In this document: piece after piece, positions 43,683 to 51,287 of the stretch
Layout: every line of letters starts with the position of its first letter
Numbering within the stretch: position 1 is the stretch's first letter
The notes under the pieces: model-generated
The model's database searches: none
The model's input: only the letters and a program-made list of their open reading frames with translations
Told to the model about the DNA's origin: nothing
Program-made: the position numbers and the translations under genes
Origin: Deltaproteobacteria bacterium
GTDB taxonomy: Bacteria; Myxococcota_A; Polyangia; Polyangiales; JADJMO01
DNA length: 64,000 nt
Assembly: GCA_025363655.1 (NCBI GenBank)
Contig: JANYDK010000051.1
Location: 1-64,000 of the forward strand
Reading direction: 5' to 3'

Positions 43683-44948
43683 ATGAAGACCCGCATCGTC
43701 GTGCCGATGGGCGCGTGCGTGCTCACGACGTGGATGCTCGCCGCGGGCTGCAACGCGCCGAGCCTGAGCCGAGAACAGACGTCGAACGCGAACGCGCCGA
43801 CCAGTGCGGAACAGCAGTTTTACGGCGATTTGGCGAGGCTCTATTGCCACGCCGAACAGCGCTGTTGCACTGCGAATGGCGAGGTGCCGGGAGCCTGCAG
43901 CGACGTCCCCGCGAAGACGCTGCCGGGAGCTTACTCGACCGATTGGGCGAGCCTCGGGCAGCACTTCGTCGAAGGGGAAGGGCCCGCGTGTCTCGCTGCG
44001 GTCGAGAAGAGGCTCGAAGACGATGCGCACTATTGCGACCGAGGCCTCGCCCAGACGCACGCCGAAAGCATCGGGGCCGCGTTCGACTTGAACGATCTCT
44101 GCCCTCAGCTCTACAGCGGCGGCAGCTATCACCAGACGCCTTCTGGCGAGCCTTGTCTCCACAGCGACGGCAACCAACAGGCCGCCGACGATGCACGTTG
44201 CAAACCTGCCGATGGAGGCTCCCCCCTCTGCGTCACCTGGACGACGTCGACGACGGGCGGAGGTAGCGCCTCGTGGGATGCGTGCGTCACCTTCATCGAG
44301 GTCGGCGGGCTCGGCGACGCCTGCGCGACCGCCTCGGACCTGACGCCCTATCGTCGAAGCATGCGCAAGGTTTCGACTTCACCGGCCGACACCTGGCGTG
44401 TCACCACACAGTGCGGCGACGGACTTCGTTGCCTCAGCGGACTCTGCGCGCCGCGCGCGAAGGTCGACGAGTCGTGCTTTTCGATCGACGATTGCAACGT
44501 CGGTCTCGTGTGCGACTACGGCCTTCACGTCTGCGCGACACCGCCAACGCCCGCAAAGATAGGCGAATCGTGCAACGCGCACCCTTGCGTGCCCGAGGCC
44601 TTCTGCGGCACGGGGATGATCTGCACGGCGCGCGTCGCCCACGGCGAGGCATGCACCACCAGCTACGACACCTGCCAGGCCGGCCTCCGTTGTCGCGGTC
44701 TTCGGTGCCTCTATCCACCGCAAGCGATTGGCCCTGGTGAGCCGTGCGACGATGTCGAGTACGTCTGCGCGGGCCGCAACACGTGCGATCCGACGACGCA
44801 GCTTTGCACCCCGCAGGGTGGCGCGGGGGCAGCCCGCCTCGGCGGGCGACAGTGCCTTTCGGCGCAGTGTCGGGACGGCAAATGCACCGCGCCCCCGGTC
44901 ACGCCACCGTACGATCCGACGATGAGCCCGCACGGCTGCGCGACGTGA
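43683..44948 (+). CDS. Cys-rich surface lipoprotein
   Basis: ATG 43683 with GAGG upstream (SD about 6-10 nt away). Signal: MKTRIVVPMGACVLTTWMLAAGC, lipobox AAGC. The first 150 residues have an alpha-helical part with CHAEQRCCTANGEVPGAC. The C-terminal half carries repeated Cys modules of the type CGDGLRC...GLC..., ESCFSIDDCNVGLVCDYGLHVC, ESCNAHPCVPEAFC, EACTTSYDTCQAGLRC, PCDDVEYVCAGRNTC. These resemble the Dickkopf/EB-like Cys repeats common in myxobacterial secreted proteins. It is presumably disulfide-bonded and surface-exposed. Function is unknown. The next gene, 48 bp downstream, has related Cys modules. Confidence 0.75.
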   Translation: MKTRIVVPMGACVLTTWMLAAGCNAPSLSREQTSNANAPTSAEQQFYGDLARLYCHAEQRCCTANGEVPGACSDVPAKTLPGAYSTDWASLGQHFVEGEGPACLAAVEKRLEDDAHYCDRGLAQTHAESIGAAFDLNDLCPQLYSGGSYHQTPSGEPCLHSDGNQQAADDARCKPADGGSPLCVTWTTSTTGGGSASWDACVTFIEVGGLGDACATASDLTPYRRSMRKVSTSPADTWRVTTQCGDGLRCLSGLCAPRAKVDESCFSIDDCNVGLVCDYGLHVCATPPTPAKIGESCNAHPCVPEAFCGTGMICTARVAHGEACTTSYDTCQAGLRCRGLRCLYPPQAIGPGEPCDDVEYVCAGRNTCDPTTQLCTPQGGAGAARLGGRQCLSAQCRDGKCTAPPVTPPYDPTMSPHGCAT

Positions 44949-44996: not shown

Positions 44997-47900
44997 ATGA
45001 AGAAGCTCGCGACGCTCGGCGTCCTCCTCGTCGCCTGTGCGCCCTCGTCGGCGCCCTCGCCCGAGCTGGCTCCCACTCCGTCGGGAACGACGTCGCCGAA
45101 GACGACGAACGAGCACGTGGCGCTCGACGTCGGCGGCCTGCACGTTCGTTCGCGCGTGGCGAAGATCGCCGAGGAGCGCGTCGAGACGCATGCCGGTTCG
45201 TCCGAGATTTCCTGGCGATTTCCCGTGCGTCCGGAGATCGCGGAGGTGGCCCTCGCGGTCGACGGCGCCGAGTTGCTCGGCGTAGACGGCCTCGGCGCCC
45301 TCGCGCGCAATGGCGACACGCTCATCCGCGTCGGCCACGGCACCTTCATCGACGCGACCGGCGCACGCACGAAAGTCCCTGCCACGAAACGCGCCGGCGA
45401 AATCGTCTACGTCCTCCCCGATGAGCTCCTCGCGCGATCGGCGTATCCGGCGGTGCTCGATCCGACGATCAGCGCGGGGACGCAGGTGTCGACGCCGGTC
45501 GACGTCGCGAGCGATGCCTCGACGTCGTTCGCCCGCTTCGACGGGACGAATTTCGTCGTCGCCTACCAGGCCGCGTGGACGCGCTTCGCTCGCGTCACCC
45601 CCAGCGGCACCATGCTCGATCCTTACGGCGTGACGGCGGGCGGCGCGCAGCTCCTCGGCATGGCCACGAGCGGCAGCGAATCGCTGGTGCTGACGCTCGA
45701 TCCCGCGATGGTGGTGCCCGGGCTGATCATCCCCGACGTCGACCCGCTCACCGCTGCCCGCGTCGGACTGGACGGGAAGGTGCTCGACATCACGCCCCTC
45801 GCCCTCGGGAGCGGCGCCGCCGGCGCGGTCGACTACGACGGGACGCAGTACGTCGTCGTCTGGAGCGATCGCAAGGACACACACCTCTCGCTCGTCTCCA
45901 AGGCGGGCTTGGTCACCGACGTCGGCAAGCTCGCGTTGCCGTCGCCGTTCGTCACGCCGCTCCGGGCGCCGCGGCTCGCCTGCAACGTCACCGGCACCTG
46001 CATCCTCGGCGACGGGTACGGCAGCACGGCGACGCGACTCGACGAAAAGGGCCTCGTCGGCGCGCCCTTCGACGCCTCGGGTGGAACCTTGGGTTCGCTG
46101 GCATTGGCGAGCGACGGCAACGACTTCCTCGTCGTTTCGGCACACACCAGCACGTTCGATCTGTTCCGGCTGACGGCGACCGGCTCGCTCTCGACGCCCA
46201 CGACGCTCGGCGCGCCGACCGACAACATCGGCGCGCTGGTGGTCGCGGGGAGCACGTCGTCGTTCTTCGTCGCCGAGCGAAACCAAGCCTACTGCGGCAC
46301 CAGTTCGTGCGGTCACATGCTCGGTGCGCGCGTCGCGAAGACTGGCCTCACCACGCCGACGTGGTACGCGTCGCTCGGACCGGAAGGCGAGCGTCCGAGC
46401 TCCAACACCTCGGTGGCGGTCGGTGGTTCCAAGGCGCTCGTCGGCTGGAGCTTCGGCTCGCCGAACACCTTCCAAGCGATGGTGCTCGACGCCACCGGCG
46501 CCCCGACGGCCGCCCTTCCCACCTTCGCCGTCGCCAAGAGTGCGAAGACGCAAGGCGCCACCGCCATCGCCTCCGATGGCACAGCGCTCCTCGTCACGTG
46601 GGAAGAGAGTTACGGTGCCGGTTGGACGTTGCGCGCGCGGCGCTTCGACGAGAAGGGTGCGCCCATCGACGCGAGTCCGCTCGACGTCGCGAGCGCGACC
46701 GGTAGCAACGCGCCCCGCGAGTACGCGGCGACCTGGGACGGCGCGGGCTACTTCCTCGCCTACCGTGAACGCAAGGAGACCGCGGGGGCGCCGCTCTATC
46801 GCGCGCGCGTCGGCTCAGGAGGGAAGCTCCTCGACGTTCCGCTCCTGCTCGAAGCGGGCGACTACACCTCGGGCAACCCAGTGGCCTCGAGCGGCGGCGG
46901 GCTCACCGTCGTGGCCTGGCTCGACGCCGGCGCCGTGTACCTGCAGCGTTTCGATGCGTCCGCCAAGGCCCTCGACGCGAGCCCGGTGCTGCTCGCTTCG
47001 GCGCTCAACTCGAGTGGGGGTGGCGAGAGCGTCGACTACCGCCCGAGCGTGACCTTCGACGGGAAGCGCTTTCTCCTGGTCTGGCCCGTGACGTCGGGCG
47101 CCAGCTCCAACCTCGTCGGAGCGTACGTCGACGGCGGCGCCCTCCCCACGACGAGCTTCCCCATCGCCACCGGCGGCGGCGAACAAGTCGATCCGAGCGC
47201 CGCCTTCGACGGCAAGGAGACGTTGGTCACGTGGATGGACGTCCAGCCCTCGGGCCGTCCGACGGTGCAGAGCGTCCGCATCGATCCGACCGGAAAGGTC
47301 CTCGACGCCGCGCCCCGCGTGCTCACCGACGACGCGCGACTGGGGACGATGTCGACGGTGGTGTTCGACGGCAATGCGTTCCTCGTCGGCGTGCGGCGAT
47401 GGAGCGGCGGCGTGGGCGTTCTGCGCGTGCGCACCGACGGCGTCGTCGCCGAGGAGGCTCCGCTCGTCGTCACGGATTCGGCTTCCGGGGGCGGCTTCAT
47501 CGCCGCCTACGGCCAGAAGCAAGTCGGCCTCGGGACCAACGGAAAGGGCGCATCGCTCGTCGCCGCCGCGGAACCGATCCCGGTGGCGCCGTACCAGGCC
47601 GCCCGCGTCCTCGTCCACGCCATCGCCGGCAAGATGCCGTTCGGCGGCACGTGCGGGGCGACGACCGATTGCGACGCCGGAACGTGCGTGGACGGGGTCT
47701 GCTGCGCGTCGCCCTGCACGGGCTCGTGCGAGGCATGTGACGTCGTAGGCGCGCTCGGCAAGTGCACGCCGGTCGTCGGCAAGCCCCACGCCGCTCGAAC
47801 CTGCGGAGGAAGGGGTGCGGCGGGCGATCTCTGCGCCGCGGGCGCGTGCGACGGCAAGAGCACGAGCTCGTGCGCCGTCTTCGCGCTCGACCCCGGCGGC

Positions 47901-50900
47901 GTCTGTGCCGCCGCGACCTGCACGGGCACGCAGTTCGTCGGCACCTCCACGTGCAGCGTGGCGCACTCGTGCGCGGCGCCGACGGCCAAGGAGTGCGCGC
48001 CCTATCGCTGCGCGACGTCGGACTGTCTCGCCACCTGCACCGGCGACGGCGACTGCGTGAAGGGAGCCACCTGCGTTTCGGGGAGCTGCGTGCCCCCCGC
48101 GAGCGGCGCGCGCTGCACCGAGGACAAGCTCTCCTCCATCGACGAGAGCGGCGCCACGACCAGCTGCGCGCCCTTTCGCTGCAACACCGACGGCAAGTGC
48201 CGACCCCAGTGCACCGCCTCCGACGACTGCATCGCCGGCTTCGTCTGCGATCCGGGCGCCGGCACGTGCAGCCCGGCCGACACCGGCGGCGGCTCGAGCG
48301 GCGGCTGCCAGGTCGGCCGCACGAGCCACGAGTGGGCGACGTTCCCGCTCCTCTTCCTCGGTGGGCTGGTGTTGCGACGACGTCGGCGATCACGCAGCGC
48401 GACCAAGACCGTCTCGATCGTCTCGATGCTCGTGACGGTCCTCGCGCTCCACGCGCTCGGCTGTCGGTCGTCGGCGGAGACGAACGACGTGCCGGTCGCG
48501 ACGAAGCGAGCCGACGCCCTCGAGGTCGCGCCGGAGTCGACGACGACGGACACGCTCGATGCAACGAGCGACGGTGCTCCGACGGGCATCGCCTGCAACG
48601 CCACGACTTGCCTCGTCGCACAGCTGCGCAGCGCCTGGCTCGTCGGGTTCCGCTTCGACGCCAGCGGCAAGCGCCTCGACGACCACGGCTTCGTCATCGG
48701 CAACGTGTCAACTGCCACCGACCCGCCGTCCGTCGCCACCGACGGCACGAATTTTCTCGTCGGAATCAGTCAGGGCTTCGTCGCCCCCCTCGTCTTTCGA
48801 GTCGGCAAGGACGGCGTCGTCGGCGATCGTCAATCGCTCGCTCTCTCCGGCACCTTCGCCGACACCCCGCTCCTCGGCTGGGACGGCAAGACCTACGTGG
48901 CGATTTGGAGCGAGCGCGCCGGGGCGACGTTGGTCACGCGCGTGGGCGCCGACGGCAAGCCTCTCTCGCTCTCCCGCAGTCAGATCCTCGACGTGCCCGC
49001 GCGAGCGCTCCTCTGCGACGGCGCCGGTTGCGTGGTGGGGGCGAGCAAGAGCGCGTACACCGGCGACGGCGTCCTCGCCGCCATCGTCGACGGGGCGCTC
49101 GTCGGCTCGCCGGTGACCACTGCGTTCCGACCGCTCGCGGCGGCGTGGAAGGGAACCGACCTCGTCGTCCTCGGACCCACCACGAGTCCGACGTTCACCG
49201 TCGCGACGTACGATCGAACGCTCGTGGCCAAGGGAGCGCCGACGACGCTCACCACCACGCGTGGAGCCTCGTCGGCGGCTCTCGCACGAGTCGGCACCGA
49301 GTACCTGGTGATCCTCGGCTTCGGCGAGATGCTTCGGCTCGACGCCTCCTTCGCCAAGCTCGATTCCACGGTCGTCTCGTTCGACCCCGGAATCTTCGGC
49401 ACGCCGACGCTCCTCGGGAGCACTTGGCAGTTGCCCACGCAATCCGGGCTCTTCGCCATCGGTACGGCGCCCCTGGGACTCACGCGCGTACCGGTCGAAC
49501 GAACGAGCGCGGCGCATCGCCTCGTCGGCGTCGCACGCGGCGGCACGCACGAAATCGTCGTATTTCTCCGCACGAACGGCACCGGAACGGACGTGATGGT
49601 GACCGCAGTGGACGGCGGAGCGTTGGCGACGGCGGCGGGCACGCTCGTCGCGCACGAGTCGAGGCCGATCGTCGAAGCCCACCTCGCGTGGGACGGCACC
49701 AACTACGTGGTCGCCTGGCTGACCGACGCGCGCGTCGCCTTCGCTCGCGTCGCCGGCGATGCGACCGTCCTCGACGCCGGCGGGCACGCGGTGACCACGG
49801 TCGACGCGTCGTTGCCCTGGCGGTGGTTGAAGGTCGCGCGTGGAACTGCCGGCGCCCTCGTCCTCGTGTCCAACGATCCCGGCAACCTCGGCGTGGTTCG
49901 ACTGACGAAGGCGGGCGGCGTCCTCGACGCGGCACCCGTCGCCTATGCGGGCTTCGGCTTCTACGGCCCCGTCACCGCCATCACCGCAACGAGCGCCGGG
50001 CCGTTCACCTCCGGGGGCTTGGGGATTCTGCGATTCGACGGCGACGGGAAGCCCATCGACGCGACGACGAAGGTGATGGTGGACAGTCGGACGAGCCTCA
50101 CCGGAGACTCGATGGTCACCGACGGCGCGCGGTGGTTCGCAGCGGCGACCACCACCAAGGCGCCGCTGCTCGGTGGTCAGAGCGTCGTCGCGGCGACGAT
50201 GCCGGTCGACTTCTCCAAGACGGCCACCACGACTACGTCCTCGCGCGACCCCGAGCAAGACCATGCCGCCATCGGCTACGACGCGGGGCGCATCGTCCTC
50301 GCCTGGGTCGAGCACGCCGACGCCGGCGACGAGCTCCGTGCCTCGTGGATCGACGCCACCACCATGAAGGTGCTCGTCGATTCGGCGAAGATCGACGTCT
50401 TCGGTGCGGGCGAGGTCGATCGTCTCCTCATCGCCTCCGTCAGCGGAAGCAAGGTCGAGCTCGTCTACCAGCGCCAGGTGCCCGATTCGAAAATCCTCGC
50501 CTCGCGGGTCGCCGCCCGCACGTTCACCTTCGACGGGCTCGGCGGAACCACCTGCAAGGCCGACGCGGATTGCGAAGTGGGCCCCTGCGTCGACGGCTAC
50601 TGCTGCAATCGCAAGTGCGATGGCACCTGTGAAGCATGCGACGTCGCCGGCGCGCTCGGCACCTGCACCACGGTCGGTGGCAAGCCACACGGCGCGCGCG
50701 CGTGCGCGGGTGGCAGCACCTGCGCCGAGGCGACCTGCGACGGGTTCGAACCGAAGTCCTGTCAGAAGTTCGCGCACGCCTTCGAGACCAAGTGCAGCGA
50801 GGCCAAGTGCGACGGCGCCATCTTCAGCTCACCGGCCTTCTGCGACGGCCGCGGCGCTTGCTCGACGCTGAAGCCGTCCTCGTGCGCGCCCTACGCCTGC

Positions 50901-51287
50901 GACGCGAAGGGCTGTCTCACGGCCTGCACGCCCAGCGCCGGCTGCGCCAGTGGCTTCACCTGCAAGGATGGTCGCTGCGTCGGACCGGACAACGCCGCGG
51001 CTTGCGTCAGCGACGGGCTCTCCTCGAAGGCCGCCGACGGTACGGTTCAAGACTGCTCGCCCTACCGCTGCGGCGACAAGGGAACGTGCTTTCCGCGATG
51101 CGACTCGGCCACGCAGTGCGCGCCCGGATTCAGCTGCGATCCGAGCGGTAACTGCGTCCCGCCGTCGGGCAACGACAGCGGTGGATGCGACGTGGGTGGA
51201 GGCTCGACGAACGCGCCGTCGCTGGCCTGGTCGATGCTCGTCTCGTTGCTCGGGGCCGCCATCCTCGCCCGTCGGGTGCGGCGGTGA
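44997..51287 (+). CDS. 2096-residue fusion of two paralogous propeller/Cys-module surface proteins
   Basis: A single frame without a stop. Residues 1-1143: lipoprotein signal (MKKLATLGVLLVAC), a long beta-propeller-like region (blades with YDGTQYVVVWSD-type cores), a Cys-rich module (CDAGTCVDGVCC ... GSCEACDVVGALGKC), and a MYXO-CTERM-like tail: GGCQVG, hydrophobic FPLLFLGGLVL, then five Arg. Residue 1144 onward (ATG 48426) starts again with a second lipoprotein signal (MLVTVLALHALGC), propeller, paralogous Cys module (VGPCVDGYCC ... GTCEACDVAGALGTC) and a second C-terminal Gly-Cys/hydrophobic/Arg tail (GGCDVG ... ARRVRR). It looks like two tandem genes joined in frame. Whether one or two products are made is open. 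Confidence 0.8.
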   Translation: MKKLATLGVLLVACAPSSAPSPELAPTPSGTTSPKTTNEHVALDVGGLHVRSRVAKIAEERVETHAGSSEISWRFPVRPEIAEVALAVDGAELLGVDGLGALARNGDTLIRVGHGTFIDATGARTKVPATKRAGEIVYVLPDELLARSAYPAVLDPTISAGTQVSTPVDVASDASTSFARFDGTNFVVAYQAAWTRFARVTPSGTMLDPYGVTAGGAQLLGMATSGSESLVLTLDPAMVVPGLIIPDVDPLTAARVGLDGKVLDITPLALGSGAAGAVDYDGTQYVVVWSDRKDTHLSLVSKAGLVTDVGKLALPSPFVTPLRAPRLACNVTGTCILGDGYGSTATRLDEKGLVGAPFDASGGTLGSLALASDGNDFLVVSAHTSTFDLFRLTATGSLSTPTTLGAPTDNIGALVVAGSTSSFFVAERNQAYCGTSSCGHMLGARVAKTGLTTPTWYASLGPEGERPSSNTSVAVGGSKALVGWSFGSPNTFQAMVLDATGAPTAALPTFAVAKSAKTQGATAIASDGTALLVTWEESYGAGWTLRARRFDEKGAPIDASPLDVASATGSNAPREYAATWDGAGYFLAYRERKETAGAPLYRARVGSGGKLLDVPLLLEAGDYTSGNPVASSGGGLTVVAWLDAGAVYLQRFDASAKALDASPVLLASALNSSGGGESVDYRPSVTFDGKRFLLVWPVTSGASSNLVGAYVDGGALPTTSFPIATGGGEQVDPSAAFDGKETLVTWMDVQPSGRPTVQSVRIDPTGKVLDAAPRVLTDDARLGTMSTVVFDGNAFLVGVRRWSGGVGVLRVRTDGVVAEEAPLVVTDSASGGGFIAAYGQKQVGLGTNGKGASLVAAAEPIPVAPYQAARVLVHAIAGKMPFGGTCGATTDCDAGTCVDGVCCASPCTGSCEACDVVGALGKCTPVVGKPHAARTCGGRGAAGDLCAAGACDGKSTSSCAVFALDPGGVCAAATCTGTQFVGTSTCSVAHSCAAPTAKECAPYRCATSDCLATCTGDGDCVKGATCVSGSCVPPASGARCTEDKLSSIDESGATTSCAPFRCNTDGKCRPQCTASDDCIAGFVCDPGAGTCSPADTGGGSSGGCQVGRTSHEWATFPLLFLGGLVLRRRRRSRSATKTVSIVSMLVTVLALHALGCRSSAETNDVPVATKRADALEVAPESTTTDTLDATSDGAPTGIACNATTCLVAQLRSAWLVGFRFDASGKRLDDHGFVIGNVSTATDPPSVATDGTNFLVGISQGFVAPLVFRVGKDGVVGDRQSLALSGTFADTPLLGWDGKTYVAIWSERAGATLVTRVGADGKPLSLSRSQILDVPARALLCDGAGCVVGASKSAYTGDGVLAAIVDGALVGSPVTTAFRPLAAAWKGTDLVVLGPTTSPTFTVATYDRTLVAKGAPTTLTTTRGASSAALARVGTEYLVILGFGEMLRLDASFAKLDSTVVSFDPGIFGTPTLLGSTWQLPTQSGLFAIGTAPLGLTRVPVERTSAAHRLVGVARGGTHEIVVFLRTNGTGTDVMVTAVDGGALATAAGTLVAHESRPIVEAHLAWDGTNYVVAWLTDARVAFARVAGDATVLDAGGHAVTTVDASLPWRWLKVARGTAGALVLVSNDPGNLGVVRLTKAGGVLDAAPVAYAGFGFYGPVTAITATSAGPFTSGGLGILRFDGDGKPIDATTKVMVDSRTSLTGDSMVTDGARWFAAATTTKAPLLGGQSVVAATMPVDFSKTATTTTSSRDPEQDHAAIGYDAGRIVLAWVEHADAGDELRASWIDATTMKVLVDSAKIDVFGAGEVDRLLIASVSGSKVELVYQRQVPDSKILASRVAARTFTFDGLGGTTCKADADCEVGPCVDGYCCNRKCDGTCEACDVAGALGTCTTVGGKPHGARACAGGSTCAEATCDGFEPKSCQKFAHAFETKCSEAKCDGAIFSSPAFCDGRGACSTLKPSSCAPYACDAKGCLTACTPSAGCASGFTCKDGRCVGPDNAAACVSDGLSSKAADGTVQDCSPYRCGDKGTCFPRCDSATQCAPGFSCDPSGNCVPPSGNDSGGCDVGGGSTNAPSLAWSMLVSLLGAAILARRVRR

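Follow-up and report, generated by a model that had tools for sequence, protein, structure and literature searches.

A predicted polyprotein of two paralogous surface lipoproteins joined by an internal MYXO-CTERM tail and a second lipoprotein signal in Myxococcota

We analyzed a window of 64,000 nucleotides (positions 1 to 64,000 of contig JANYDK010000051.1, assembly GCA_025363655.1, Deltaproteobacteria bacterium) in which one stop-free frame with an ATG start encodes a protein of 2096 amino acids (Table 1). A preliminary description of this DNA had proposed that the frame fuses two paralogous halves, and units 1 and 2 indeed share 27.7% identity over ∼1000 amino acids (E value of 4e-59). The protein begins with an export signal of the lipoprotein type, MKKLATLGVLLVAC, followed by a beta-rich domain, a Cys-rich module, and the junction SGGCQVGRTSHEWATFPLLFLGGLVLRRRRRSRSATKTVSIVSMLVTVLALHALGCRSS, behind which another beta-rich domain and another Cys-rich module lead up to a terminal tail. 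Pfam gave no match in the protein; the Cys-rich part of unit 1 has nearly 60 further matches elsewhere in the same genome. An AlphaFold model of unit 2 (m64f4c17c81c9, built with six sequences) is all-beta, with a pLDDT of 64.5 and a pTM of 0.52, and beta-propeller proteins dominate its Foldseek matches, one of which is the tandem propeller of EML1. The model is of moderate confidence, and we assign a beta-propeller fold to unit 2 tentatively. The model has very low confidence over the first 38 residues past C1156, as would be expected of a flexible lipoprotein tether. The gene just upstream (43683-44948) encodes a Cys-rich lipoprotein-like protein of 421 amino acids, MKTRIVVPMGACVLTTWMLAAGC.

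Table 1. Features of the twin gene, in positions of the window
Feature	Position	Strand	Basis or remark
Twin polyprotein gene (predicted)	44997..51287	+	2096 codons plus stop; full-length fused paralogues exist
N-terminal lipoprotein signal, lipobox LVA-C14	44997..45038	+	Sequence; both paralogues have a matching lipobox at residue 13
Predicted mature lipoprotein of unit 1, C14 to C1104	45036..48308	+	Beta-rich domain plus Cys-rich module
Internal MYXO-CTERM tail: Gly-Cys (C1104), hydrophobic stretch, R1127-1131	48297..48389	+	TIGR03901, 24.8 bits (cut-off 20)
Internal lipoprotein signal: hydrophobic stretch, lipobox ALG-C1156	48375..48464	+	Passes strict lipobox test; G1155-C1156-R1157 invariant in three paralogues
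Internal in-frame ATG	48426..48428	+	No equivalent start after Arg cluster in L003 or L214
Out-of-frame TGA, frame +1	48433..48435	+	Not conserved between copies
Predicted mature lipoprotein of unit 2, C1156 to C2064	48462..51188	+	Beta-rich, propeller-like domain plus Cys-rich module; AlphaFold and Foldseek
Terminal MYXO-CTERM-like tail	51177..51284	+	TIGR03901, 19.0 bits (just under cut-off 20)

The junction carries two processing signals in succession. The MYXO-CTERM-like tail that had been noticed at the end of the first half reached its TIGR03901 score in a six-frame scan; the score was 23.4 bits in a slice of 140 amino acids and 17.7 bits, below the cut-off, when the whole half was scanned. 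Unlike the terminal copy in unit 2, this tail is not C-terminal, with 965 residues following in frame. No stop separates it from the second lipoprotein signal, whose lipobox cysteine (48462-48464) lies 25 residues past the Arg cluster. A charged n-region, a hydrophobic stretch, and a lipobox cysteine are present at the internal ALGC1156 and likewise at the N-terminal LVAC14, and R1127-1131 of the tail is predicted to double as the positive n-region of the internal signal. The signal of a protein starting at the ATG at 48426 would lack a charged n-region, and this ATG is not conserved. The window junction thus has the layout of a polyprotein, with two products in one frame and processing signals between them. 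The genome also encodes the myxosortase MrtC (NF040594, 246 bits; cut-off, 195).

The window genome contains two further paralogues (C63 and C25) on other contigs, L002 (2170 amino acids) and L003 (2127 amino acids counted from its conserved ATG). Both are 42-43% identical to the window protein over the full length, and each lies in one frame. Their junctions are GSSGCATGPNESSSWGSLGACIVLAVGAVLRRRRRQALRSLSALAVIGLVALVGCRSN and GSGGCSVSRPGASGAAMAWLVAIGVVWGVRRRRAALVVAAAATLGGCRAN, respectively, and the Gly-Cys of the tail (G1103 and C1104 in the window protein), Arg residues (R1129-1131), and the GCR of the lipobox are invariant among the three proteins. In L003, the Arg cluster directly abuts the second hydrophobic stretch, so that one cluster must both close the tail on the cytoplasmic side and supply the n-region of the signal that follows. 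Homologues that always occur as two genes, which had been named beforehand as the observation that would speak against a genuine fusion, are not what we found: both homologues of the window family are single genes. In a tree of the halves of the three paralogues, the first halves form one clade and the second halves another, each with 100/100 support. The paired halves are therefore older than the triplication of the gene, and most simply, duplication and joining of the halves would have preceded its copying.

These paralogues bear on the idea that two ordinary genes were joined through an artifact of sequencing or assembly, or through a stop loss or frameshift of recent date. The preliminary description had suggested loss of one base, on the grounds that a TGA in another frame follows shortly after an internal ATG. 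Both triplets are present where it placed them, and apart from the TGA nothing speaks for such an error. The base arithmetic runs the other way: the TGA is in frame +1 and would require one base gained (or two lost), and frame +2, which loss of one base would imply, has no stop between 48250 and 48600. Moreover, the joint is alike in three diverged paralogues, each on a contig of its own, and off-frame stops vary between the copies, with none near the junction in L002. Coding periodicity is unbroken through the junction, with GC3 at 0.70-1.00 in windows of 20 codons and at 0.90 over codons 1051-1200. The same in-frame junction is found in several unrelated families and in many genomes, as described below. 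We ruled out the frameshift or base-loss model on the basis of the paralogues, the varying off-frame stops, the unbroken periodicity, and the reversed base arithmetic, and we give an accidental joining of any kind next to no credence.

A scan of the genome collection with the window protein as single query found no relative, and among the genomes searched (115 of the 183 in the order) the window family occurs in its own genome only. The case for wide conservation therefore depends on families other than this one that share its junction. We inspected roughly 60 MYXO-CTERM matches in the window genome, nearly all of which end 0-16 residues from a stop codon. Six matches with the Cys signature lie deep in a frame, and all six run into a lipobox: those of the three members of the window family, L075, L214, and L081. 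L075 is a twin of Kelch plus Cys-rich modules joined tail to head. L214 (2887-7587, minus strand) has a weak GH15-like match in its first half and an alpha-amylase domain (PF00128) in its second half, past the hairpin, and is possibly a pair of starch-acting surface enzymes. L081 (2101-6492, minus strand) is a protein of ∼1430 amino acids with an internal MYXO-CTERM tail plus lipobox and without a Pfam match.

We searched for L081-type proteins in the 183 genomes of the order with a profile of 314 positions spanning the junction. Matches were obtained in 122 genomes, and relatives (among L215-L302) are scattered over the phylum. By a hand count from the match table, the junction is read through in one open frame, typically of about 1400 amino acids, in about 100 of the 183 genomes, including single-contig assemblies (G116, G154, G164, G165, G175, G176, and G177). 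Members that belong to other classes of the phylum also have a hairpin of the order TM-Arg-TM-lipobox, for example L292, GCAVGGAGLGPLWLIGFALFFGRRRRFAALIAALFLGTVGC. In G017 and G129 (L260 and L261), the ∼1430-amino-acid protein is encoded by two genes that adjoin or overlap. The first gene closes with a MYXO-CTERM-like tail and a stop codon; the second is an open reading frame of its own, which has a clear lipobox start in G129. The family thus switches between fused and split forms, which would be expected of products that are separate in the end. An alignment scan returned mostly Cys-rich modules, together with Kelch-type twins in a groundwater MAG (L147 and L153) and in Polyangiaceae Prado144 (L184); in another Kelch-type protein of the groundwater MAG (L162), the frame stops early in the second half.

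When a strict lipobox test was applied, 49 of 53 junctions passed, compared with 12 chance matches among 67,303 control residues taken from these open reading frames. Because the junctions had been gathered by a search for the same tail-plus-lipobox pattern, 49 of 53 is not an unbiased rate. Elsewhere in these frames, lipobox-like segments occur at about 0.011 per 60 residues, a background so low that a lipobox 13-61 residues from the Arg cluster is not due to chance. Because proteins unrelated to one another show this in-frame join throughout the phylum, we take it for a conserved design rather than an error of sequencing.

A further unrelated fused type was seen in L219 and L228; L219 has a nidogen-like domain, the MYXO-CTERM/lipobox hairpin, and then MopE-type metal-binding repeats.

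The second half might instead be made from an internal start (TTG at 48372 or ATG at 48426), the locus being in effect two genes and the read-through of the fusion incidental. Possible in-frame starts do lie close to the junction in the window gene, L002, and L075. However, none of ATG, GTG, and TTG occurs between the Arg cluster and the lipobox cysteine of L003 or L214, so separate initiation cannot explain these two, and 35 of the 53 junctions lack a start codon in the interval that begins with the Arg cluster and stops 12 residues short of the cysteine. In addition, no stop closes the first half at any junction, and a fused product would therefore arise regardless of an internal start. The L003, L214, and 35 start-less junctions rule out an internal start as a general explanation, and we consider the two-gene reading improbable for the window gene.

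The chain could also stay uncut, or be cut once, with the hairpin acting as a lipidated membrane anchor in the middle of the protein. The name of the NF058595 family (invert_tail, lipo-invert putative C-terminal anchoring domain) hints at such a role, and this model describes a hydrophobic-Arg-hydrophobic stretch with a lipobox-like cysteine, as in our hairpin. The junctions match it below threshold (16.5 bits in the window protein, 21.3 in L002, 18.6 in L214, and 17.6 in L081), the window junction falling far short of the cut-off of 37. Only one genome match, L303, exceeds the cut-off (53 bits). L303 has the order TM-RRRR-TM-lipobox, followed by a Gly-rich run and only a short final strand; it lacks the MYXO-CTERM cysteine and is perhaps the same hairpin serving as a C-terminal anchor. 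NF058595 sits at the C-terminus of proteins, unlike the window hairpin. This model also had matches of 20-31 bits throughout the phylum; these resemble generic hydrophobic-Arg stretches, and we disregarded them. Several points weigh against an uncut anchor besides the missed cut-off: both cleavage signatures are conserved, the ∼1430-amino-acid family exists in split two-gene forms, and an uncut hairpin would retain at the inner membrane two large domains that are otherwise of a surface type. We regard this alternative as unlikely, if less so than the internal start.

We favor, with a probability of roughly 70%, the reading that the window gene specifies two paralogous surface lipoproteins as one polyprotein, its hairpin being cut once by myxosortase and once by LspA. 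Myxosortase cleaves MYXO-CTERM proteins in a Cys-dependent manner, and the cut is thought to fall behind the lipidated cysteine (PMC11980579). We infer that the window protein would be exported, lipidated, cut twice, and displayed on the surface in the following way. Sec would export unit 1 by means of the N-terminal lipoprotein signal, the hydrophobic stretch of the internal MYXO-CTERM tail would halt transfer and leave the Arg cluster in the cytoplasm, and the next hydrophobic stretch would restart transfer with the same Arg cluster as its n-region. Lipidation by Lgt and then cleavage by LspA before C1156 would free unit 2 as a lipoprotein, and cleavage behind C1104 by myxosortase, here MrtC, would free unit 1. 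At the end of unit 2, the terminal tail would be handled in the same way as the internal tail. The outcome would be two equimolar surface lipoproteins, each possibly lipidated at its N and C termini; the hairpin, about 50 residues long, would be discarded. The window genome is taken to encode Lgt and LspA, as diderm bacteria generally do. The preliminary description had foreseen either a hairpin in mid-protein or a protein cut into two; the hairpin is borne out as a conserved anatomy, and the split relatives of the ∼1430-amino-acid family are consistent with the predicted cut.

To our knowledge, bacteria rarely make polyproteins whose parts are released by membrane proteases, and a text search of the literature for bacterial polyproteins with signal peptidase found nothing. 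In Bradyrhizobium, the cytochrome b/c1 precursor FbcH is cut at an internal signal peptide into two proteins. The window gene resembles it in yielding, as we propose, two proteins from one bacterial precursor through an internal signal peptide; the FbcH products, however, are unrelated proteins that are not lipoproteins, and FbcH has no sorting tag. Another parallel is MXAN_5598 of Myxococcus xanthus, which likewise has a MYXO-CTERM motif within the open reading frame and for which a gene fusion and processing of the N-terminal part were proposed (Guo, Haft, Wall 2025, PMC11980579). The second part of MXAN_5598 is an outer-membrane beta-barrel with OmpA domains, whereas that of the window protein is a predicted paralogous lipoprotein, and MXAN_5598 as described has no mention of an internal lipobox. 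The window protein shares with the MYXO-CTERM/myxosortase system (TIGR03901 and TIGR03382; MrtX and MrtC) the Gly-Cys, hydrophobic stretch, and Arg cluster and the presence of an MrtC gene, but its tag is internal and leads straight into a second export signal. An internal MYXO-CTERM (MXAN_5598) and the lipo-invert hairpin were thus already known, and the combined junction and its breadth appear to be new. We did not find a MYXO-CTERM tail with a second lipoprotein signal in several families phylum-wide in the literature examined; earlier in silico work on myxosortase could mention it.

Beyond the window gene, we lean modestly towards the view that Myxococcota reuse the hairpin of tail and lipoprotein signal, with its one Arg cluster, as a general polyprotein linker that two membrane proteases cut to give equimolar pairs of surface lipoproteins, with one such polyprotein occurring phylum-wide. 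If this is true, the conserved two-signal hairpin shows that the MYXO-CTERM tag is able to work in mid-chain, and it offers a clean substrate for studying the order in which Lgt, LspA, and myxosortase act. The annotation of many long myxobacterial surface proteins would also change, since each of them may be two.
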